Origin: Hymenobacter oligotrophus
GTDB taxonomy: Bacteria; Bacteroidota; Bacteroidia; Cytophagales; Hymenobacteraceae
Length of the DNA stretch: 64,000 nucleotides
Assembly (NCBI RefSeq): GCF_003574965.1
Contig: NZ_CP032317.1
Span: 2,852,001-2,916,000, forward strand
Direction of reading: 5' to 3'
Shown: positions 21,959-31,305 of the stretch, piece by piece
Numbering within the stretch: position 1 is the first letter of the stretch
How the letters are laid out: the number at the start of each line of letters is the position of its first letter
Made by a program: the position numbers and the translations under genes
The notes under the pieces: generated by a model
The model's input: the letters and a program-made list of their open reading frames with translations, nothing else
Database searches by the model: none
Told to the model about the DNA's origin: nothing

Positions 21959-22417
21959 ATGCATTCGCTGAAATATAGCTGTGCCCTGTTGGGCCTAGGT
22001 GCTCTGCTGCTGACCAGCTCGGCGGCAGCGGCGCAACACAACGCCAACCCCATGCCCAATGCCATGGCGCCCGACCCAGGGCGCCATTCCGAGCTGGGCG
22101 GCCGCAAGCTCTACCGCTACGTCGAGCAAATGCCGGTGTATTTGGATGGCGGCAAAGCCGGGCTGCAGGCGTTTATCGGCAGCCGCGTGCGCGGCGCGGC
22201 CAGCGGCAGCGGAGCCTACCTAACCTTTGTGGTCGACCAAACGGGCAAGCCTCGTTTTCCCGCCCTAGGTCCCGCATCGGCCGATTCGGAAGCGGCCACC
22301 GACCCGGCGCTGGCCAGGGCTTTTCAGTTGATGGGCAGTTTCAGGCCGGGCTACCAAAACGGCAAACCCGTGGATGTTGAGCTGACCATTCCCCTCGCCA
22401 AACCCACCAGCAAGTAG
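21959..22417 (+). CDS. Exported TonB-C-like single-domain protein
   Basis: A 152-aa protein. MHSLKYSCALLGLGALLLTS…AAAQ is the signal peptide. The remainder aligns in pattern with a TonB C-terminal domain (MPVYLDGGKAGLQAFIGSRV, AYLTFVVDQTGKPRFPALGP, AFQLMGSFRPGYQNGKPVDV, ELTIPL) but has no membrane anchor. It may be a periplasmic relative of the gene at 19464. It follows the HMG-CoA reductase stop by 41 bases and could be co-transcribed. Confidence 0.75.
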   Translation: MHSLKYSCALLGLGALLLTSSAAAAQHNANPMPNAMAPDPGRHSELGGRKLYRYVEQMPVYLDGGKAGLQAFIGSRVRGAASGSGAYLTFVVDQTGKPRFPALGPASADSEAATDPALARAFQLMGSFRPGYQNGKPVDVELTIPLAKPTSK

Positions 22418-22550
22418 CTACCGGGTGTTCTGGCTCCTCAAAATTTCTCGCGCCCGCACGACCTAGGCAAACTACGGCATGCTTCATCCAACGTCCGCGC
22501 AGTCGATGGGCCCTACCGCGTAAGGCCGTCACGTCGACCCCTCAGAAGGG

Positions 22551-22580
22551 TCATATCGAGCTTGTCGAGACATCTTGCGT
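22551..22580 (+). repeat. REP-like repeat, variant copy
   Basis: TCATATCGAGCTTGTCGAGA followed by CATCTTGCGT. A divergent member of the GTC-ATG-(T/C)GAGC…GA-CATCTC family found around carAB. Single copy, plus orientation. Confidence 0.6.
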
Positions 22581-22604
22581 GCTTCATTGCCATCAATTCA
22601 GGCC

Positions 22605-22695
22605 GTCATGTCGAGCGTAGCCGAGACATCTCGCCTGCTGATGTCCGATAGAATATTATTATCCGGCGAGATGTCTCGACGGGGCTTGACATGAC
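22605..22695. repeat. Inverted pair of REP-like repeats
   Basis: The plus copy 22605–22634 (GTCATGTCGAGCGTAGCCGA then GACATCTCGC) faces the minus copy 22666–22695 (GCGAGATGTCTCGACGGGGC then TTGACATGAC). They form an approximately 29-bp imperfect stem with an AT-rich spacer (ATAGAATATTATTATCC). This is the CGAGACATCTCGC subfamily. Confidence 0.75.
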
Positions 22696-22851
22696 GGGCT
22701 TATTGCAGCCGAAACAGTATTTCAGCTTCAACCCCAGATGAGTCTTTTCAACGCCTATTCGCTCAACGACGTCACGGCGGTTCGTCCCTAGGTGCGCAGA
22801 TCTGGAATGACAAGGAAGAGCACGACTCTACCTTGTCAGCCGTTGTGCCAT

Positions 22852-22947
22852 AATTTCAATCGGCACAGCCACTACATCGAGCGCGCGGACATCGACCAAT
22901 TTTTGCGGGCGCTGTGCGCAATTATTCCGGCAGAGGTGAAAAGTTAA
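22852..22947 (+). pseudogene. C-terminal fragment of an unidentified protein
   Basis: The frame NFNRHSHYIERADIDQFLRA followed by LCAIIPAEVKS and a stop is open for only 31 codons with no start. The pattern (paired His/Tyr, then a DIDxFLRAL helix ending the protein) resembles the last helix of class-V aminotransferases such as cysteine desulfurase or epimerase-like proteins, but this is weak. The adjacent upstream DNA shows no continuing frame. Probably a gene remnant in the repeat-rich gap before carA. Confidence 0.3.
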
Positions 22948-23538
22948 GCGACTTGTAGCCTAACTTGCGGCCTTAATGAGTGGCACCACGAGGTTCACGA
23001 GCAAAGCTCACCTTTTGATAAGCTGCACGCTGCCGTTTCCTACAACTGCGCAGCCCCTGGCCGGTTCTTTCCCCGAAAGCACGGCCGCCCAATCCCCGTT
23101 TCGGCCGTCGTATTCGCCCGGTTTGCCGTTGTTCGACAGCGGCCACCGACCGGGCCCGGGGCCGATGGAATTGCTTTCTTTCGCCTCCGTTCGGTACCAA
23201 TCCGCATTCGGCTGGAATAGACCCCTGATATCAGGCTCTGTTCCAGCCGAATTTGTTTTCGGCGCGCCCCGAAAGCCCGCTGTAACGCGAAAATCCGTTT
23301 GGCTCCGCCGACCTGCGGTTCGCGACGAGCCGCAGGCGAGTTCCGGAGCGTTTGGGCGGTACCCAATTGGCGCCTGCGGCGCCACGCGGAACAGATTTTC
23401 CGCGCTACTGATGCGCCCGCCGCGACTACTCAACCAAACAAGCCAATCGACCCAACTTTCCGTCTGGCTTCCCCTCTCTTTTGGAGAGGGGGCCGGGGGG
23501 TGAGGTCCTTACCATAAACCCTTTTTTCGCACAACAGA
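22948..23538. other. Gene-poor stretch before carA
   Basis: Open frames exist on both strands here but none has a signal, domain or plausible start. A 12-bp hairpin (ATTCGGCTGGAA, 23206–23217 with 23241–23252) lies in the middle. Near the end a hairpin CCCCTCTC…GAGAGGGG (23469–23491 region) is followed by a G-rich run (GGCCGGGGGGTGAGGT), which looks like an interspersed repeat. The carA leader contains AAACCCTTTTTTCGCAC. Confidence 0.5.
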
Positions 23539-24624
23539 GTGGAAAACGCTAAATCGGTGAAGCTGGTGCTAGAAGACGGCACCGAAATCCAAGGACAATC
23601 GTTCGGGGCGTTTACCTCGGCCGCGGGCGAAGTGGTGTTCAGCACGGCCATGACCGGCTACCCCGAAAACCTCACCGATCCGTCCTTTGCCGGGCAGATA
23701 CTGGTGCTCACCTACCCCATCGTGGGCAACTACGGCGTGCCGGGCGAGGAGCTATACGAGTCGATTTCCCGCATTTTCGAATCGGACAAGATTCACGTGG
23801 CGGGCCTGGTGGTGAACTACTACTCCGAGGAGCACAGCCACTGGCACGCCGCCAAGAGCCTGGGCGAGTGGCTGGCCGAATACAACATTCCCGGCATCTG
23901 CGGCGTGGACACGCGCATGCTCACCAAAAAGCTGCGCGAGAAGGGCGCCATGCTCGGTAAAATCGTGGCCGCAGAGGACGTGCCCCTGCACGACCCCAAC
24001 CAGGACAACCTAGTAGCCCAGGTGAGCCCCGAGGGCGTGCAGCACTACGGCACGGGCAGACACAAAATCGTGCTGGTGGACTGCGGCACCAAGACCAACA
24101 TCATCCGCTGCTTCCTGGAGCGCGACGTGGAGCTGATCCGCGTGCCCTGGGACTACGACTTCACCCAGCTCGACTACGACGGCCTGTTCCTGAGCAACGG
24201 CCCCGGCGACCCGAAAATGTGCACCGCCACCATCGAGCACCTGCAAAAGGCGCTGACGCAGGACAAGCCCATCTTCGGCATCTGCCTAGGCTCCCAACTC
24301 ATGGGCCTGGCGGCCGGCGGCGACACCTTCAAGCTCAAGTACGGCCACCGCAGCCACAACCAGCCCGTCAAGCTCACGGGCACCCAGCGCAGCTACATCA
24401 CCAGCCAGAACCACGGCTTCGCAGTGGACACGGCCACGCTGCCCGCCGACTGGGACATGCTGTTCGAGAACCTTAACGACGGCACCTGCGAAGGCATTAA
24501 GCACAAGACCAAACCCTTCTTCTCCACCCAATTCCACCCCGAAGCCGCCGGCGGCCCCCAGGACACGGAGTTTCTGTTCGACCAGTTCCTGGACGAGGTA
24601 GAGAAGTACAAGGCTGGCAAGTAG
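23539..24624 (+). CDS. carA: Carbamoyl-phosphate synthase small subunit
   Basis: A 361-aa glutaminase subunit that delivers ammonia to CarB. The N-terminal domain starts VKLVLEDGTEIQGQSFG with the typical EVVFSTAMTGYPENLTDPSF. The class-I amidotransferase domain has the nucleophile in FGICLGSQLMGLAAGG and the His/Glu pair in STQFHPEAAGGPQDTE. The frame opens with GTG at 23539; no upstream ATG is in frame. carB lies 1.3 kb downstream instead of directly adjacent, with an AT-rich block and repeats between. A REP-based hairpin follows the stop. Confidence 0.96.
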   Translation: MENAKSVKLVLEDGTEIQGQSFGAFTSAAGEVVFSTAMTGYPENLTDPSFAGQILVLTYPIVGNYGVPGEELYESISRIFESDKIHVAGLVVNYYSEEHSHWHAAKSLGEWLAEYNIPGICGVDTRMLTKKLREKGAMLGKIVAAEDVPLHDPNQDNLVAQVSPEGVQHYGTGRHKIVLVDCGTKTNIIRCFLERDVELIRVPWDYDFTQLDYDGLFLSNGPGDPKMCTATIEHLQKALTQDKPIFGICLGSQLMGLAAGGDTFKLKYGHRSHNQPVKLTGTQRSYITSQNHGFAVDTATLPADWDMLFENLNDGTCEGIKHKTKPFFSTQFHPEAAGGPQDTEFLFDQFLDEVEKYKAGK

Positions 24625-24633
24625 GCGAACGAC

Positions 24634-24750
24634 CAAGCTCAGCACGACGAAAAAGAACGTCATGCTGAGCTTGTCGAAGCATCTCTACTGATAGCAATTC
24701 TTACCGTGAGAACAAAGCAGCAGAGATGCTTAAACAAGCTCAATATGAAA
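24634..24750. repeat. REP-like cluster downstream of carA
   Basis: Three pieces are present: a partial minus copy (CAAGCTCAGCACGACG, 24634–24649), a full plus copy (24656–24688, AACGTCATGCTGAGCTTGTC then GAAGCATCTCTAC), and a degenerate minus copy (24717–24750, CAGAGATGCTTAAACAAGCT then CAATATGAAA). The first two form a 16-bp stem that could end carA transcription. The last two flank a 28-base spacer. Confidence 0.8.
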
Positions 24751-24793
24751 TTTTGGATGAAATACCAGTAATCTGCTACCTTATTTTTTGTAC

Positions 24794-25201
24794 ATGAAAA
24801 TCAGACATCAAACTGTGTTAAAAAAGTTGCTTAGACCATTCGATTATGCGTTTTATAGATTAGCAGAATTATTTTTTAAAAAAGATGGAAGTGAGGCAAT
24901 CAGAGCTATAGGGTTGCTATCATTAATGCAGGGTCTTTATATTGGATTCTTTGTGACTATGCTCAATAGAAAGATTGCTGAATTTGAATTAATAACAAGT
25001 TTAAAATGGGGAAAAATTCTACTTGCTGCCTTAACAATCACCCTGTTTGCTGTAAATTACAAAAGATATGCCAACAACTTTTATACAATGGCTGGTATGT
25101 GGCGAGGCACGGAAAAAATATATCAAAGAAGAGTAAGAAGTATTTATATAATACTTTCTTTTCTATCATCTTTATTAATATATCTATTCGCCCTACTATA
25201 A
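24794..25201 (+). CDS. AT-rich small membrane protein, unknown function
   Basis: A 135-aa ORF in a distinctly AT-rich block between carA and carB. After a basic N-terminus (MKIRHQTVLKKLLRPFDYAF) it has three hydrophobic segments: AIGLLSLMQGLYIGFFVTML, ILLAALTITLFAVNYK and SIYIILSFLSSLLIYLFAL. The charged loop MAGMWRGTEKIYQRRVR lies between the last two. Base and codon use differ sharply from the neighbours, suggesting transfer. No family recognised. A TTG two codons earlier is a less likely start. Confidence 0.7.
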   Translation: MKIRHQTVLKKLLRPFDYAFYRLAELFFKKDGSEAIRAIGLLSLMQGLYIGFFVTMLNRKIAEFELITSLKWGKILLAALTITLFAVNYKRYANNFYTMAGMWRGTEKIYQRRVRSIYIILSFLSSLLIYLFALL

Positions 25202-25244
25202 GATTAATTAACAACATCACGAAGCTTTTAACTACTGTACTCGC

Positions 25245-25524
25245 ATGTACGTCTACATCCTGACCAACCCTACCCAGACCGTGCTCTACATTGGCGTTAC
25301 GAATGACCTTAAACGTCGCCTGTACGAGCATTGCAGCGGTCGAGGCGACGCCGGGAAGTTTACCGGACGATATCAAGTGGACTTGCTAGTGTATTTCAAA
25401 ATATGCCCAGATGCGACGCAAGCCATAGCGCGAGAAAAGCTGGACGCGAGCCAAGAAAGACGCGCTGATTGCCGCGTTTAACCCAACTTGGCAGGCCATT
25501 GATTTGGAAACGTGGGCAGGGTAA
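25245..25524 (+). pseudogene. GIY-YIG endonuclease domain protein, frameshifted copy
   Basis: The first 65 residues (MYVYILTNPTQTVLYIGVTN, then DLKRRLYEH…) match the intact copy at 29416 almost exactly. After AIAREK an 11-base deletion relative to that copy (CAGCTGAAAGG missing) shifts the frame, so the open frame stops at 25481. The original frame is still readable downstream (KKDALIAAFNPTWQAIDLET then WAG and a stop at 25524). It has lost the central QLKGWTRQ part and is probably inactive. Both copies lie among REP-like repeats on either side of carB. Confidence 0.88.
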
Positions 25525-25542
25525 AATTCATCAAGCACAACC

Positions 25543-25821
25543 ATGTCTGAGGTAAGAATCTACAGGTCGCGAAAAGCTTTCGATAGCGAGAAACCTTTTT
25601 TGCTGTTTGATACTGAAAAAGTAAGCGCAATAAAAGTAGCGGAGTATATGGACGAAGCAAGCTCAAACAGCTATTGCTTCAAGCTAACGGTCGATGACAA
25701 AGAGTTTGCTTTCTGCTATGGCAAATCGGACAATAGAGACGAGTATTTAAGCCGTTTACTTCTGGCAATCGAAATGATTCAGGAACATAATATGCCTTTG
25801 GTAGACGTCATTATGTACTAA
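25543..25821 (+). CDS. Small AT-rich protein of unknown function
   Basis: A 92-aa ORF starting MSEVRIYRSRKAFDSEKPFL. It is compact, mixed alpha/beta in appearance, with no signal peptide or membrane segment; the end is EMIQEHNMPLVDVIMY. Base composition is AT-rich like the small membrane gene upstream. No family recognised. It sits between the broken GIY-YIG copy and a REP-like repeat, in the block that separates carA and carB. Confidence 0.6.
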   Translation: MSEVRIYRSRKAFDSEKPFLLFDTEKVSAIKVAEYMDEASSNSYCFKLTVDDKEFAFCYGKSDNRDEYLSRLLLAIEMIQEHNMPLVDVIMY

Positions 25822-25857
25822 AAAAAACCGTAACGCAACCGTTGCCAACGAAGCGGC

Positions 25858-25890
25858 AGAGATGCTTCGACAAGCTCAGCATGACGTTCT
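25858..25890 (-). repeat. REP-like repeat upstream of carB
   Basis: AGAGATGCTTCGACAAGCTC then AGCATGACGTTCT, a full consensus copy in minus orientation. It ends 44 bases before the carB start codon. Confidence 0.85.
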
Positions 25891-25934
25891 GATAACTCCT
25901 TCGCCTACGGTCTTTTTGAACACCACACCCCAGA

Positions 25935-28900
25935 ATGAACAAGCCCAACAAAGTCCTCATCCTCGGTTCCGGCGCCCTCAAAATCGGGGAGGCCGGTGAG
26001 TTCGATTACTCCGGTTCGCAGGCCCTCAAGGCGCTGAAAGAGGAAGGCATCCGCACCATCCTCATCAACCCCAACATTGCCACCGTGCAAACGTCGGACG
26101 ACATTGCCGACGACGTGTACTTCCTGCCCGTGACGCCCTACTTCGTGGAGGAAGTCATCAAGAAGGAGCAGCCCGACGGCATTCTGGTGGCCTTCGGCGG
26201 CCAGACGGCTCTCAACTGCGCCGTGGCCTTGTACCGCGCCGGCGTGTTCGAGAAGTACAACGTGCGCGTGCTCGGCACGCCCGTGCAGAGCATCATCGAC
26301 ACCGAGGACCGCGACATCTTCAAGGAAAAGCTCGACCAGATCGGCGTGCTCACGGCCCGCAGCGAAGCCGTGACCAGCATCGAGGACGCGCTGGCAGCCG
26401 GGGAGCGGATTGGCTTCCCCATCATCGTTCGCGCCGCCTTTGCCCTAGGTGGCCTGGGCAGCGGCTTCGCCAACAACATGGACGAGCTGCGCACCCTGGC
26501 CCAAAAGGCCTTCTCCACGTCGGACCAGATTCTGGTGGAAGAGTCCTTGAAAGGCTGGAAAGAGGTGGAGTACGAAGTGGTGCGCGACCAGTTCGACAAC
26601 TGCATCACCGTCTGCAACATGGAGAACTTCGACCCCATCGGTATCCACACTGGCGAGAGCATCGTGGTGGCCCCGTCGCAGACCTTGAGCAACCGCGAGT
26701 ACCACAAGCTGCGCAGCATCGGCATCAAGACCATCCGCCACCTGGGCATCGTGGGCGAGTGCAACATTCAATACGCCCTCGACCCGTACTCGGAGGAATA
26801 CCGCGTGATTGAGGTGAATGCCCGTTTGTCGCGCTCCTCGGCCCTGGCTTCCAAGGCCACCGGCTACCCGCTGGCTTTCGTGGCCGCCAAGCTGAGCCTG
26901 GGCTACTCGCTGGCCGAGCTGAAAAACAGCGTCACGCAGACCACCTCGGCCTTCTTCGAACCGTCGTTGGACTACCTGGTGGTGAAGCTGCCGCGCTGGG
27001 ACCTAGGGAAGTTTTCGGGCGTGCAGCGCCAGATCGGCTCGGCCATGAAGAGCGTGGGCGAGGTCATGGCCATCGGCAAAACCTTCGAGGAAGCCATTCA
27101 GAAGGGTTTGCGCATGCTGGATACGGGCCGGCGCGGCTTCGTGGCCAACAAGCCCGAGTCGTTGCTCGACAACGCCAGCCTCGATACGCTGCTGAACGAG
27201 CCGAACGAGGAGCGCATCTTCGCCATCAACCAAGCCTTCGAAGCCGGCTACGACGTGGACCGCGTGTACGAGCTGACGCGCATCGACCGGTGGTTTTTGC
27301 AGCGCCTCTACGGCATCTACCAGCTGGGCCAGCAACTCAGCGCGAAGCGCAACAACGGCGGCCTCGACGCCCTCGACACCGACCTGCTGCGCCAGGCCAA
27401 GAAGTCGGGCTTTTCAGACCAGCAGCTGGCCTTCCAGCTCCTTGGCCCGGCCGAGGTGAAAGCCAACGAAATGCTGGTGCGCGCCCGCCGCAAGGCCCTA
27501 GGTGTGCTGCCCGTCATCAAGCAAATCGACACGCTGGCGGCCGAATTCCCGGCCCAGACCAACTACCTCTACCTCACCTACCACGGCACCGAAAACGACC
27601 TGGCGCCCGAAGCCGACAAGTCGGTGGTGGTGCTGGGCTCGGGCGTGTACCGCATCGGCTCGTCGGTGGAGTTTGACTGGTGCGGCGTGAATGCGGCCCA
27701 AACGGTGAACGAGGAGGGCTACAAGTCCATCATCATCAACTACAACCCCGAAACCGTCTCGACCGACTACGACGTGTCGGACCGCCTGTACTTCGAGGAG
27801 CTGTCGTACGAACGGGTGATGGACATCCTGGACTTCGAGCAGCCGCAGGGCGTGATTCTGAGCACCGGCGGGCAGATACCGAACAACATTGCCACTCGCC
27901 TGGAGCAGGCCGGCGCGCCCATCCTGGGCACCGCCGCCGCCCGCATCGACGAGGCCGAAAACCGCCACAAGTTCAGCAGCATCCTGGACGAGCTGGGCAT
28001 TGCCCAACCGCGTTGGAGTGAGCTGACCACCATGGAGGCCATCTACGATTTCGTGAAGCAGGTGGGCTTCCCGGTGCTGATTCGCCCGAGCTACGTGCTG
28101 TCGGGCGCGGCCATGAACGTGGTGTCCAACGTGCAAGAGCTGCAGGAATACCTGAAGCTGGCCGTGGACGTCAGCGCCGAGTACCCGGTGGTGGTGTCGG
28201 AATTCATCCAGGAAGCCAAGGAAATCGAGCTGGACGCGGTGGCCGACAAGGGCGAAATCGTGTCGTACGCCATATCGGAGCACGTGGAGTTTGCCGGCGT
28301 GCACTCCGGCGACGCCACCATGTACTACCCGCCGCAGCGCGTGTACGTAGGCACGGTGCGCAAGCTCAAGGTCATTGCCGAAAAGATTGCCAAGCGCTTC
28401 CAGATCAGCGGGCCGTTCAACATCCAGTTCCTGGAGAAAAACCGCGAAATCCGCGTCATCGAGTGCAACCTGCGTGCCTCGCGCAGCTTCCCGTTCGTGA
28501 GCAAAGTCTCGGGCCACAACCTGATCAAGAAGGCGACGAAGGTGCTGCTGGGCGTGCCCGTGGAGCGCGACGCGAGCGAGCTGGTGTACGACTTGCCCTT
28601 CGTGGGCGTGAAGGCCTCGCAGTTCTCCTTTACCCGCCTGCAAGGCGCCGACCCGGTGCTGCGCGTGGACATGACCTCCACCGGCGAAGTGGGCTGCTTG
28701 GGCGACACGGCCGAAGAAGCGCTGCTCAAGTCGCTGCTGTCGGTGGGCTACCGTATTCCGGAGCGCTCGGTGCTGATTTCCAGCGGTCCGCTTACCTCCA
28801 AAGTGGCCCTACTGGAATCGGCGCAGGTGCTGGTGCAGAAGGGCTACACCCTCTACGCCACGCACGGCACGCACAGCTTCTTCGCCGAAAACGGCGTGCC

Positions 28901-29189
28901 CAGTTCCCTGGTCTACTGGCCCGACGAGCTGCAGGAGCCCAACGCCCTGACCTACCTGCGCGAGCGGAAAATTGACTTGGTCATCAACATCCCCCGGAAT
29001 ATGACCAAAGGCGAGCTGGACAACGACTACAAAGTACGCCGCACGGCAGTCGACTTCAACATCCCGCTCATCACCAACGCCCGCCTGGCCAAAGCCTTCA
29101 TCCACGCCTTCACCACGCTGAAGCTGGAGGATTTGAGCATCAAGAGCTGGAAGGAGTTTAAGGCGGAAGCGGTAAGTGTGGAGGCGTAG
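25935..29189 (+). CDS. carB: Carbamoyl-phosphate synthase large subunit
   Basis: A 1084-aa enzyme that makes carbamoyl phosphate from bicarbonate, two ATP and ammonia. Two homologous ATP-grasp halves are visible: the first from KVLILGSGALKIGEAGEFDYSG with IVRAAFALGGLGSGFANN, and the second from VVVLGSGVYRIGSSVEFDWC with LIRPSYVLSGAAMNVVSN. The C-terminal allosteric MGS-like domain starts near VGYRIPERSVLISSGPL and ends with the TNARLAKAFIHAF region. Length is normal. It is separated from carA by an AT-rich block and followed by REP repeats, a GIY-YIG gene and the argF' remnant. Confidence 0.97.
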   Translation: MNKPNKVLILGSGALKIGEAGEFDYSGSQALKALKEEGIRTILINPNIATVQTSDDIADDVYFLPVTPYFVEEVIKKEQPDGILVAFGGQTALNCAVALYRAGVFEKYNVRVLGTPVQSIIDTEDRDIFKEKLDQIGVLTARSEAVTSIEDALAAGERIGFPIIVRAAFALGGLGSGFANNMDELRTLAQKAFSTSDQILVEESLKGWKEVEYEVVRDQFDNCITVCNMENFDPIGIHTGESIVVAPSQTLSNREYHKLRSIGIKTIRHLGIVGECNIQYALDPYSEEYRVIEVNARLSRSSALASKATGYPLAFVAAKLSLGYSLAELKNSVTQTTSAFFEPSLDYLVVKLPRWDLGKFSGVQRQIGSAMKSVGEVMAIGKTFEEAIQKGLRMLDTGRRGFVANKPESLLDNASLDTLLNEPNEERIFAINQAFEAGYDVDRVYELTRIDRWFLQRLYGIYQLGQQLSAKRNNGGLDALDTDLLRQAKKSGFSDQQLAFQLLGPAEVKANEMLVRARRKALGVLPVIKQIDTLAAEFPAQTNYLYLTYHGTENDLAPEADKSVVVLGSGVYRIGSSVEFDWCGVNAAQTVNEEGYKSIIINYNPETVSTDYDVSDRLYFEELSYERVMDILDFEQPQGVILSTGGQIPNNIATRLEQAGAPILGTAAARIDEAENRHKFSSILDELGIAQPRWSELTTMEAIYDFVKQVGFPVLIRPSYVLSGAAMNVVSNVQELQEYLKLAVDVSAEYPVVVSEFIQEAKEIELDAVADKGEIVSYAISEHVEFAGVHSGDATMYYPPQRVYVGTVRKLKVIAEKIAKRFQISGPFNIQFLEKNREIRVIECNLRASRSFPFVSKVSGHNLIKKATKVLLGVPVERDASELVYDLPFVGVKASQFSFTRLQGADPVLRVDMTSTGEVGCLGDTAEEALLKSLLSVGYRIPERSVLISSGPLTSKVALLESAQVLVQKGYTLYATHGTHSFFAENGVPSSLVYWPDELQEPNALTYLRERKIDLVINIPRNMTKGELDNDYKVRRTAVDFNIPLITNARLAKAFIHAFTTLKLEDLSIKSWKEFKAEAVSVEA

Positions 29190-29211
29190 TTGGCTACTGA
29201 CGTTTAGATTC

Positions 29212-29244
29212 AGAACGTCATGCTGAGCTTGTCGAAGCATCTCT
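29212..29244 (+). repeat. REP-like repeat downstream of carB
   Basis: AGAACGTCATGCTGAGCTTG then TCGAAGCATCTCT, a full consensus copy, 22 bases after the carB stop. Confidence 0.85.
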
Positions 29245-29280
29245 ACCGCTTCGCTGGAGTTATCAGTACTGAATGAAAAC

Positions 29281-29383
29281 AGAGCGTCATGCTGAGCGAA
29301 GCCGAAGCATCTCTACTAATAGTAACTCCTCTCGCGAGGACGACCCCGGTAGAGATGCTTCGGCAGGCTCAGCATGACGTTCT
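29281..29383. repeat. Inverted pair of REP-like repeats upstream of GIY-YIG gene
   Basis: The plus copy 29281–29314 (GCGTCATGCTGAGCGAAGCC then GAAGCATCTCT) faces the minus copy 29351–29383 (AGAGATGCTTCGGCAGGCTC then AGCATGACGTTCT). They pair over about 30 bases, with an inner CTCTCGCGAGG palindrome in the spacer. It ends 32 bases before the intact GIY-YIG start codon. Confidence 0.85.
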
Positions 29384-29415
29384 AATTTTTCTGTTGTTCT
29401 GCGTAACGTAGCCGC

Positions 29416-29706
29416 ATGTACGTCTACATCCTGACCAACCCGACCCAAACCGTGCTCTACATCGGCGTCACCAATGATCTGGCCCGCCGCCTCTACGAGC
29501 ACAGTCAGGGCCGTGGCGACGCGGGCAGGTTCACCGGGCGGTATCAGGCGGATTTACTGGTGTACTTCGAGCAGTGCCCGGATGCTACGCAGGCCATTGC
29601 GCGAGAAAAGCAGCTGAAAGGCTGGACGCGGCAGAAGAAGGACGCGCTGATTGCGGCGTTTAATCCGACGTGGCAGGCTATTGATTTGCAGTCGTGGAGT
29701 ATGTAA
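29416..29706 (+). CDS. GIY-YIG endonuclease single-domain protein
   Basis: A 96-aa protein. The eponymous motif appears as YVYIL (residues 2–6) and YIGVT (15–19). The catalytic arginine is in DLARRLYEH, and the metal-binding glutamate is expected in AIAREKQLKGW. This is the stand-alone UPF0213/COG2827-type GIY-YIG domain, a small DNA nuclease fold without DNA-binding add-ons. All catalytic positions look intact. The gene is immediately preceded by an inverted pair of REP-like repeats, and a paralogue (broken) lies on the other side of carB, suggesting duplication or mobility. Confidence 0.93.
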   Translation: MYVYILTNPTQTVLYIGVTNDLARRLYEHSQGRGDAGRFTGRYQADLLVYFEQCPDATQAIAREKQLKGWTRQKKDALIAAFNPTWQAIDLQSWSM

Positions 29707-29753
29707 TTAAATAGAATGTAATGCAGATTTATACTCTCAAAATTTCGAACTTA

Positions 29754-30262
29754 TGAAGTTTGCATTTGGCTTATTTCTGATCTTATTATCGTCCTATGGC
29801 GTACAGGCACAACGATTTGACTTTGCTGCTAAGGATGCAGTAAAAGTGCCTATTACCTTCTTGGCGCAGGTTAAGCAGTATATCGAGAAGCATGATGGTG
29901 TACCTATAGTGTACCTATAGTGTACCTATAGTGTACCTATAGTGAACGACAAATTCACATATATACCCGTCTTTAACGTCATGAAACGATCTGAAAAACG
30001 ATTTGTAAATGGGATATACTATTTCACTCATAGTTCACATGATTCAGGTCGCCTCTTTATCCACCATAAAGGACAAATTATATTTCTGAGAAATGATAAC
30101 ACGTCTAACATCTTAACAGACTATAGTAGCTATTTAAAGAAATATGCGCCTTCTGAAAATACCCGAATAGCTTATTTATCAGCTATTGCAGCATTTATGA
30201 AGTTCCGCTCAGAAGACCAGCGATTGTTGATCAAAAGTGGCGCATTGGAAACAGTGAATTAA
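29754..30262 (+). pseudogene. Broken exported-protein gene with 11-bp tandem repeat
   Basis: The ATG at 29754 reads only eight codons before a stop. One frame over, FGLFLILLSSYGVQAQ followed by RFDFAAKDAVKVPITF is an obvious export signal and mature start, so a single base appears to be missing near 29760. That frame stops at 29918 inside an 11-base tandem array and is open again from 29921 to 30262 (NDKFTYIPVFNVMKRSEKRF, then a basic soluble domain). With one repeat unit the coding frame would be continuous, giving about 158 residues. The block is AT-rich. No family recognised. Confidence 0.65.
29899..29942 (+). repeat. Tandem array, 4 × 11 bp (TGTACCTATAG)
   Basis: Four perfect copies of TGTACCTATAG. 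The unit is not a multiple of three and carries a TAG that becomes in frame from the second copy, so copy number decides whether the surrounding exported-protein frame is open. Confidence 0.95.
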
Positions 30263-30279
30263 GATTTCAATGAAGCGGT

Positions 30280-30308
30280 AGAGATACTTCGACAAGCTCA
30301 GCATGACG
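30280..30308 (-). repeat. REP-like repeat
   Basis: AGAGATACTTCGACAAGCTC then AGCATGACG, one mismatch from consensus. It lies 49 bases before the argF' remnant and closes the repeat-rich block. Confidence 0.8.
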
Positions 30309-30357
30309 GCCTGACGGTCTTTTCCGTCTGCCCTTCTGAAACACTATAGAACACCAC

Positions 30358-30500
30358 ATGAACAAATTCACCTCGTTCGCCGACGTACCGGATTACAAAG
30401 CCCTGCTGTAACAGGCGCGGGAGATAAAGCAGAACCCCTTCGGCTACCAGCACCTAGGCCGGAACAAGACCGTTGATCCGGTTTTCTTCAACCCCATTCC
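30358..30500 (+). pseudogene. argF': N-terminal remnant of N-acetylornithine carbamoyltransferase
   Basis: The frame starts MNKFTSFADVPDYKALL, has a TAA at 30409, then continues QAREIKQNPFGYQHLGRNKT and VFFNP. The pattern KFT…AD…ALL-QA-EIK…PF-Y-LGRNKT…FFN is the N-terminus of Bacteroidota acetyl/succinylornithine carbamoyltransferases. The following carbamoyl-phosphate loop (SLRTRLS in the family) is lost. It is a stop-codon-bearing, truncated fossil. This enzyme uses the carbamoyl phosphate made by CarAB just upstream, so an arginine gene once stood here. A functional copy is expected elsewhere. Confidence 0.8.
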
Positions 30501-30656
30501 ACCAAGGCGGATTGCAGACCGTGCGTCCGACTTTACCCCACACAGTTACTTCTCGCACAGAGAAGAAAGCCAAGCATTAGCAAAGAGAATTACGTCTTCG
30601 GTTCGGGCCTTGGCCGCCGCGCCCTAGGTGAAATGAATACCCACGCGCGAAAACAA

Positions 30657-30690
30657 GCGGGGCCACCGAACTCACGTTCGGTGGCCCCGC
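30657..30690. terminator. Strong bidirectional-looking hairpin
   Basis: A 15-bp perfect stem (GCGGGGCCACCGAAC with its complement) and a 4-base loop, flanked by AAAACAA on the left and AATTGTT on the right. It lies downstream of the minus-strand lipoprotein gene (stop 30775) and of the argF' remnant. Confidence 0.8.
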
Positions 30691-30774
30691 AATTGTTACT
30701 GATGCCCTAGGTCGTCTGGCTTCCTTCTGTGCGCTGCCGCGCACGGAGCGAGGCAGCGCCTAGGTGCAAATGCT

Positions 30775-31305
30775 CTACAGCGGATCAGCCGTTACCTTGA
30801 ATTTGGAGTCGGCGCGCATGGTGATGTCTTGGGTTACGGCGGCACGCACGCGGGCTTCGGTAGTGAGAGTATACGAAGCGGCTTTGATGTATTTGTCGAG
30901 CTTGGCGCCGCTGGGCTGCAAATCGAGGGTGCGTACGCCGCGCGGAATGGAGCTTAGCGAAGCCAGCGGCACGCGGTCGTTCTGGTCGGTGCTGATGTAA
31001 ATGGTGATGCTTTCGAGGAAATCGAAGTTAGCCGTGTTGGGGTCGGTGATGGTGAGCGTAAGCTTGGTAAGGCTCACGTCCTTCACGAGGTCGGCGCGGG
31101 TGTCTTCGTTGCGAAAACGGTCTTCGGATTTGGTAGTAACCGAAACGGGCGCCACCGGAATAACTGACCCGAAGGGCAGGTTGCTACCCGCTACCCGGAT
31201 GTTCTGCGAGTCTTCGATGGTGAAGGTGAGAATTTTGTCGAGTTTTTTGCAGGCAACGGCCGTGAGCATGGCCACAGCAGCCAGCAAGAAAAGTACTTTA
31301 TTCAT
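30775..31305 (-). CDS. Predicted lipoprotein of unknown function
   Basis: A 176-aa protein. MNKVLFLLAAVAMLTAVAC is a lipoprotein signal with lipobox AVAC followed by KKLDK. The mature part is beta-rich with many Thr/Ser (ILTFTIEDSQNIRVAGS, DVSLTKLTLTITDPNTANFD, ITIYISTDQNDRVPLASL), an immunoglobulin-like impression. No family is confidently named. The internal ATG is chosen for the signal peptide. It is encoded 49 bases after the start of the membrane protein gene upstream on the same strand and may follow it in one transcript. Confidence 0.75.
   Translation of the reverse strand: MNKVLFLLAAVAMLTAVACKKLDKILTFTIEDSQNIRVAGSNLPFGSVIPVAPVSVTTKSEDRFRNEDTRADLVKDVSLTKLTLTITDPNTANFDFLESITIYISTDQNDRVPLASLSSIPRGVRTLDLQPSGAKLDKYIKAASYTLTTEARVRAAVTQDITMRADSKFKVTADPL

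Follow-up and report, generated by a model that had tools for sequence, protein, structure and literature searches.

Stand-alone GIY-YIG nuclease genes bracketed by CGTC-type REP repeats: candidate enzyme and probable ends of small mobile units in Hymenobacter and other bacteria

The stretch of DNA analysed here, called the window, comprises 64,000 nt of Hymenobacter oligotrophus (GCF_003574965.1, NZ_CP032317.1, positions 2,852,001-2,916,000), and plain coordinates below are window positions. Its interval 22550-30307 holds nine clear copies and one degenerate copy (24718-24748) of a short repetitive extragenic palindromic (REP) repeat, together with two genes for stand-alone GIY-YIG nucleases. 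We show here that repeats of this type bracket such nuclease genes in many bacterial groups, and we ask what this association means. The features of the interval are the following.

22550..22574, + strand: REP, GTC subtype, with one mismatch (pattern/detector scan)
22605..22630, + strand: REP, GTC subtype, left half of a bare REP pair (detector scans)
22670..22695, - strand: REP, GTC subtype, right half of the bare pair begun at 22605 (detector scans)
24659..24683, + strand: REP, GCT subtype, left end of the carA-carB unit (detectors; left end kept in relatives)
24718..24748, - strand: degenerate REP, 84% complementary to 24660-24690
24788..25201, + strand: open reading frame (ORF) of 137 aa inside the unit of REPs at carA-carB (Pfam: nothing at E 0.01)
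25245..25478, + strand: frameshifted GIY-YIG gene copy, two pieces in different frames (PF01541)
25543..25821, + strand: 92-aa ORF, whose sole homologue in 60 family genomes adjoins a GIY-YIG gene at another site, in genome G025
25861..25885, - strand: REP, GCT subtype, right end of the carA-carB unit (detector scans)
29217..29241, + strand: REP, GCT subtype, left end of the unit downstream of carB (detector scans)
29286..29311, + strand: REP, GCT subtype, left half of the inner pair (detector scan; pair folding)
29354..29378, - strand: REP, GCT subtype, right half of the inner pair, ~37 nt before the GIY-YIG start (detector scan)
29416..29706, + strand: intact stand-alone GIY-YIG nuclease gene, 96 aa (PF01541, E 2.7e-17; conserved motif residues)
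29942..30262, + strand: 106-aa ORF located after the GIY-YIG gene and before the right REP (Pfam: nothing at E 0.01)
30283..30307, - strand: REP, GCT subtype with one change, right end of the unit downstream of carB (detector scan)

An earlier note on this DNA had counted about ten repeats in one 7.8-kb interval and none elsewhere in the window, and two whole-window scans with a palindrome detector agree, finding no REP copy outside 22550-30307. The two subfamilies it had described, GTCATGCTGAGC..CGAAGCATCTC and GTCATGTCGAGC..CGAGACATCTC, are both present. Two narrow REP patterns gave one and two matches on the window vs none in 100 shuffles each. Over the 4.19-Mb host genome, a strict REP pattern has 47 dispersed matches (reversed control 0), six of which fall inside the interval, where even spacing would place ~0.09.

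Both GIY-YIG genes match PF01541, and the protein of 29416-29706 scores 63.3 bits against a cut-off of 22.6. As the earlier note had it, the intact gene starts 32 nt after the longer repeat; the distance from the core of the (-) REP is ~37 nt. Among the residues to which catalytic roles are assigned in GIY-YIG proteins are a Tyr, the Tyr and Gly of YIG, an Arg, a Glu and an Asn; in an alignment of 16 sequences, Y4, Y15, G17, E64 and N83 are invariant and R25 is nearly so. The only PDB sequences matched by the window protein, 1ZG2 and 1YWL, are both UPF0213, and we take the protein to be a member of the COG2827/UPF0213 family (YhbQ, YazA type). The host genome has three full-length genes of this type. 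Of 60 family genomes, 51 have matches, which include fragments and degenerate homologues, and 46 have matches of 60 bits or more. In the accessible part of a published account, YhbQ and YazA are grouped with Slx1 (PMC7017083).

A looser detector, applied to the own-genome stretches around the strict matches and to the window, recovers 88 copies. Of these, 52 form 26 (+)/(-) pairs with a gap of 110 nt or less and with their CGTC tags outward, in keeping with the earlier description of the repeats as often forming inverted pairs; the commonest gap in these stretches is 38 nt (10 of 26 pairs). Folded as DNA, the pair at 22601-22699 forms one hairpin (-31.8 kcal/mol, z -7.2), and the pair region 29283-29383 reaches -38.2 kcal/mol (z -9.4). 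The strong palindrome is the REP pair, not the single REP.

When 22000-31000 was scanned against Rfam in E-value mode, every match stayed under its gathering score. Among the sub-threshold matches, AaHKsRNA41 falls on REP pairs at 24610-24819 and 29160-29398; we take this as a chance likeness to long hairpins. The AaHKsRNA41 small RNA may itself contain REP-like pairs. In the host genome at C1:3421116-3421684 (L333), a REP pair lies inside a longer repeat of ~270 bp, which recurs in the genus with no ORF between the REPs, for example at G025:C6:206871-207142.

The CGTC REPs were defined by Di Nocera et al. in 2013 and, according to the part of that paper available to us, include Bacteroidetes repeats, Neisseria dRS3 (the neisserial CGTC-1 repeats) and Rickettsia RPE-4/RPE-6 (PMC3733652). 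In the H. oligotrophus genome, a C precedes GTCAT in 31 of the 40 own copies listed, which gives the CGTC tag. The stem starts and closes with AT (GTCAT..ATC), which is partly circular, as the detector has this built in; an AT-ended stem was also seen by eye, without the detector, in several GIY-YIG loci. The published repeats have an unpaired tag, CGTC or else TGTC/CCTC, at one end, an uninterrupted stem of 8-9 bp, a loop of 4-5 and a CCA tail, whereas the stem of the window GCT subtype consists of AT and 3 bp followed by a mismatch, and the window tails are CTC or CTT. Because the tag, the AT ends and the inverted dimers are shared but stem length and tail differ, we call the window repeats CGTC-type and place them outside Di Nocera's four families.

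The bracketing extends far beyond this locus. An alignment of seven family proteins, used for a wide search of 84,980 species genomes, yielded at least 585 pattern matches; 572 were confirmed as relatives, and the best 80, covering many phyla, were kept. The combined set, whose family and wide genomes may overlap in some species, has 184 GIY-YIG hits in 178 loci; dropping 14 partial hits leaves 170 genes, and dropping four more with short flanks leaves 166. Of the 30 family loci first listed, 27 carry one or more REPs no further than 1.5 kb from the gene, as a rule a (+) copy before it and a (-) copy after it. At the best 80 loci, REPs number 5.9 per kb in the first 100 bp from the gene, 4.0 at 100-200 bp, 0.79 at 200-500 bp and 0.05-0.10 beyond, a ~60-110-fold fall beyond 500 bp, while a non-complementary control stays at 0-0.13 per kb. 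With the first, narrow detector, a REP was found within 250 bp of the gene in 61 of these 80 loci.

Compared with other ORFs of the same loci, the association is specific to the nuclease gene. At least one side carries a REP in 115 of 166 GIY-YIG genes (null detector 12/166; control ORFs 86/703), and both sides do in 78 of 166 (null detector 2/166; control ORFs 7/703). A motif-free test, which compares 250 bp upstream with 250 bp downstream, finds a flanking inverted repeat in 92 of 166 GIY-YIG genes, in 17 of 694 other ORFs and in 4.6% of 2000 mismatched flank pairs; GTCAT stands on the upstream strand in 66 of the 92. The first detector missed some REP forms. Reading by eye of 24 loci out of the 51 genes scored negative among the 166 showed REP variants, mostly short-loop, around most of them, and the detector was then widened and its null stated: a REP lies within ~200 bp in 131 of 170 genes (null 10/170) and on both sides in 90 (null 2). 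Altogether, a REP, a flanking inverted repeat or both occur at 146 of the 170 genes.

With at least one side counted, REPs accompany 69 of 79 family genes and, in the wide set, 16 of 18 genes in Bacteroidota, 12 of 13 in Pseudomonadota and 5 of 5 in Chloroflexota; Spirochaetota, Actinomycetota and Uhriibacteriota have 2 of 2 each, groups of one or two loci carrying little weight. Two-sided bracketing is seen in nine phylum-level groups, and by eye also around a Planktothrix plasmid gene. In Neisseria gonorrhoeae the GIY-YIG gene lies between CGTCATTCCCGC..GCGGGAATCC repeats, and in Azospirillum lipoferum between CGTCATCCCCGC..GCGGGGATCC pairs. On A. lipoferum AZO_p3 (L295), a REP-bracketed GIY-YIG gene sits inside the suf operon, between sufB and sufC. 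The GIY-YIG-like proteins of genus g3 that lack the Tyr of YIG (L237-L243) have a REP at none of seven loci and serve as a natural negative control, perhaps representing a domesticated branch.

The lineage of the protein also follows the subtype of the repeat. The three host genes stand with three different REP subtypes, GCTGA at 29416, TGCGA at C1:12150 and CCTGA at C1:1578055. A subtype could be assigned for 73 of 79 family genes; for 54 of the 73 the subtype agrees with that of the nearest protein from another genome (within-genus permutation mean 16.6, maximum 29 in 300 permutations), and for 35 of the 73 with that of the nearest protein from another genus (permutation mean 8.8, maximum 18). 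This match is partly due to shared descent of whole loci, but its persistence across genera is what an enzyme-substrate pair predicts. The REP-nuclease partnership proposed in the earlier note is thus supported by the distance profile, the flanking-repeat test, the phylum counts and the subtype matching, as well as by the transposase control described below; the repeats are enriched near GIY-YIG genes in relatives, although they are spread over the whole host genome.

Comparison of occupied and empty sites in relatives, which the earlier note had suggested, reveals REP units that are present, bare or absent at the same site. At a site in genus g1, G004 carries REP-GIY-REP and G015 a bare pair, their ~50-nt ends being alike; G020 has a pair of a different subtype and the host genome a diverged pair, and no REP is found at this site in G010, G025 and G035. 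The comparison leaves out G030, whose two flanks lie apart. At a site in genus g6, compared in 16 genomes, four have only 68-73 nt, a fifth 153 nt, four a GIY-YIG unit and seven another insert. One such insert was tested (L248:1098-1466; loci L248-L271) and encodes a 23S-rRNA intervening-sequence protein (PF05635, 136.7 bits); it is flanked by inverted repeats of its own (AGACATAAGACACAGGACATAAGACTC type) and represents a second kind of small repeat-bracketed gene.

Between carA and carB, the REP pair occupies the same place in five of eight genus genomes, with the left REP only in two and none in one. The left ends of the five units are 91-97% identical and the right ends 85-100% over shorter stretches, whereas the interiors are alike in none of 10 pairs at E 1e-3. 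The interval from carB to the next gene likewise differs in its contents between species. A third site has differing REP-bracketed ORFs in the host genome, G025 and G035, and likewise in G015, where the right REP has decayed; in G010 the pair there is bare, and G020, G030 and G004 lack REPs at this site. Such turnover of cassettes led us to consider integron-like exchange, which would depend on a site-specific tyrosine integrase.

One immunity-like passenger cassette has changed places. The third-site cassette of G025 is the carA-carB cassette of G035, both encoding an Imm50 protein above the Pfam cut-off; the two are 84.9% identical over ~535 nt, a stretch that begins at the C of CGTCAT and runs on for 5 nt after ATGAC, and outside these limits nothing is alike. 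Each of the two genomes has one copy, and the other six genus genomes have no match. Among the units compared, this passenger cassette is the clean case of the same unit at different sites. Between GIY-YIG loci, similarity stops within 3 nt of the REP outer end at 46 of 113 informative right ends (random 1.8%) and at 38 of 300 left ends (random 2.1%), although the locus pairs are not independent. The units end at the CGTC tags and, as expected of transposons, have terminal inverted repeats and non-autonomous derivatives.

Taken together, we think it probable that small mobile units have these repeats as their ends and that the dedicated enzyme for such ends is the GIY-YIG nuclease of ~95 aa. 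This nuclease is the prime suspect for spreading the REPs because they bracket its genes and also end cassettes at differing sites. A full unit would consist of a CGTC-REP(+), ~40-85 nt, the GIY-YIG gene, ~10-50 nt and a REP(-), amounting to ~0.4 kb in the cleanest examples; the bare pairs, of ~90 nt, would be non-autonomous derivatives resembling miniature inverted-repeat transposable elements (MITEs), and the same ends would also carry passenger genes. Presumably, the REP pair is extruded as a long hairpin or cruciform and recognised by the GIY-YIG protein, which would cut at the CGTC tags; repair would then copy or insert the REP-bracketed unit at a new site, or swap units at an old one. 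Units without a nuclease gene would be acted on in trans. In its wider form, for which we see about an even chance, this would define a new mobile-element class whose members, at ~0.4 kb, may rank with the smallest autonomous elements: CGTC-REPs would form the ends, and a GIY-YIG nuclease of ~95 aa would be the sole mobility enzyme. The class would be present in about ten bacterial phyla, would be the source of the bare REP pairs and would move immunity-like and orphan genes as REP-bracketed cassettes.

Several observations weigh against a dedicated GIY-YIG mobility enzyme. Recognition, cleavage and movement by the protein are inferred from association, and action in trans is assumed because the nuclease gene is missing from the passenger cassettes. 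A GIY-YIG unit with clean ends was not itself found at two different sites, and target-site duplications could not be made out at the g6 and g1 sites, on Sphingobium plasmids or at the moved cassette (one pair), the junctions being multi-layered or unalike. A single window REP folds no better than shuffles (-2.5 kcal/mol, z 0.1). By script, 24 of 170 GIY-YIG genes have neither REP nor flanking inverted repeat, and in Bacillota only 10 of 20 genes have a recognisable REP. Over the 60 family genomes, all GIY-YIG hits correlate weakly with REP counts by one pattern (rho 0.30; with vs without the gene p 0.055; within-genus permutation p 0.35), and G016, G033 and G056 have 44, 71 and 49 REP matches with no GIY-YIG hit. 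Restricting to hits of at least 60 bits, which drops fragments and degenerate homologues, gives rho 0.47 (p 0.0001) and medians of 45.5 REP matches in the 46 genomes with the gene vs 2.5 in the 14 without (p 0.002), but this cut was chosen afterwards and not repeated within genera. Because the pattern covers part of the subtypes and REPs persist without the gene, the case rests on position and specificity, not on co-occurrence.

The strongest alternative, which we regard as possible but with clearly less than an even chance, is homing: the nuclease would cut existing REP sites, repair would proceed from another REP-bracketed unit with the REP ends as homology arms, and cassette swapping would be the main effect, new sites arising rarely and by other means. 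The wholly different interiors between fixed REP ends at carA-carB and the differing ones at the third site are what this would produce, as are one cassette at two different REP sites and the lack of a visible target-site duplication, but homing by itself accounts neither for REP pairs at REP-free sites nor for their wide dispersal. Wholesale exchange at fixed ends leans to homing and sites without REPs in relatives lean to transposition. It is unlikely that the protein is a host housekeeping nuclease trimming replication-blocking REP hairpins, its gene kept beside the substrate while another agent spreads the repeats. Escherichia coli yhbQ, whose annotation is indeed that of a DNA damage response nuclease, stands without an adjacent REP, and of three Caulobacter COG2827 genes, described as UvrC-like with no role assigned, one has an SOS box (PMC1839093, in the accessible part); however, a host gene need not be bracketed by its own substrate, and several paralogues with different REP subtypes per genome, together with patchy presence, look like mobile genes.

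That REPs and GIY-YIG genes have no partnership and both gather in roomy intergenic hot spots, the REPs being terminators or mRNA hairpins, is highly improbable. REP-bearing sites do hold assorted small genes, the g6 site holds an unrelated insert in seven of 16 genomes, and a REP on one side or the other is not rare at control ORFs; yet REPs on both sides are far commoner at GIY-YIG genes than at control ORFs, for which we set this explanation aside, and subtype matching across genera speaks against it as well. We give even less credence to Y1 transposases of the REP-associated tyrosine transposase (RAYT) type spreading the repeats from elsewhere in the genome, as for GTAG REPs. The earlier note had recorded no RAYT gene here, but the host genome does have four Y1/RAYT-type genes elsewhere, none of them with such REPs nearby, and 51 of 60 family genomes have a Y1 match. 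Among 34 Y1 loci examined (30 from the matches listed and the four own genes), none has a CGTC-type REP within ~200 bp (null detector 2) while 22 have flanking inverted repeats of their own; these Y1 loci do not track the repeats, and the RAYT explanation was set aside. The same lack of association is reported in PMC3733652, whose available part describes CGTC REPs as not associated with transposase genes and apparently without a dedicated transposase.

Other features of the window are recorded here for completeness. An 11-bp tandem repeat (GTGTACCTATA) stands at 29895-29949, directly before the 106-aa ORF. At 30358-30411 lies the start of a gene that is presumably ornithine-carbamoyltransferase-like, with a stop after 17 codons; it looks like a decayed gene because relatives align to that stretch. 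The palindrome CCTAGG occurs 98 times in the 64 kb vs ~21 expected from base composition, and AGGCCT and CTCGAG 21 times each.

The GIY-YIG fold is not known to drive prokaryotic transposition by itself, and a mobile unit of this kind, if real, would reveal a new nuclease fold doing so. It would also point to a way in which orphan and immunity-type genes of small size relocate from one bacterial species to another. For CGTC REPs, which were described without an enzyme, a candidate can now be named whose genes the repeats bracket and whose lineages follow the repeat subtype, which poses a question testable at the bench. In the literature searched, mainly open-access and with preprints outside, no listed title or abstract opening ties GIY-YIG proteins to REPs, and some papers with both terms are unchecked; priority of the link is therefore not certain. 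A term search of a 2025 REP survey found no word starting with GIY (PMC12306157).

The system resembles REP/RAYT in its short palindromic repeats, often in inverted pairs, that bracket the gene of a DNA-cutting protein and have many gene-less copies. In contrast, the enzyme here is an unrelated GIY-YIG nuclease, the tag is CGTC instead of GTAG, and the ends carry passenger genes; the hallmark of the GTAG system, a Y1 gene bracketed by the repeat, was seen at none of the Y1 loci examined. With the CGTC REPs of Di Nocera et al. the window repeats share the tag, the AT-ended stem and the inverted dimers, and the GIY-YIG genes of N. gonorrhoeae and A. lipoferum are bracketed by typical CGTC repeats, although the window subtypes have a shorter uninterrupted stem and CTC in place of the CCA tail. 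The COG2827/UPF0213 nucleases of the YhbQ and YazA type have the same single GIY-YIG domain, but E. coli yhbQ is not bracketed by REPs. As with MITEs and their autonomous transposons, the bare end-pairs share terminal sequence with the gene-carrying unit; unlike them, the unit has no known transposase family and no target-site duplication was seen. Free-standing GIY-YIG homing endonucleases also exist, and they too are small GIY-YIG proteins that may spread by cutting DNA, whereas the nuclease genes described here are bracketed by repeats dispersed over the genome.

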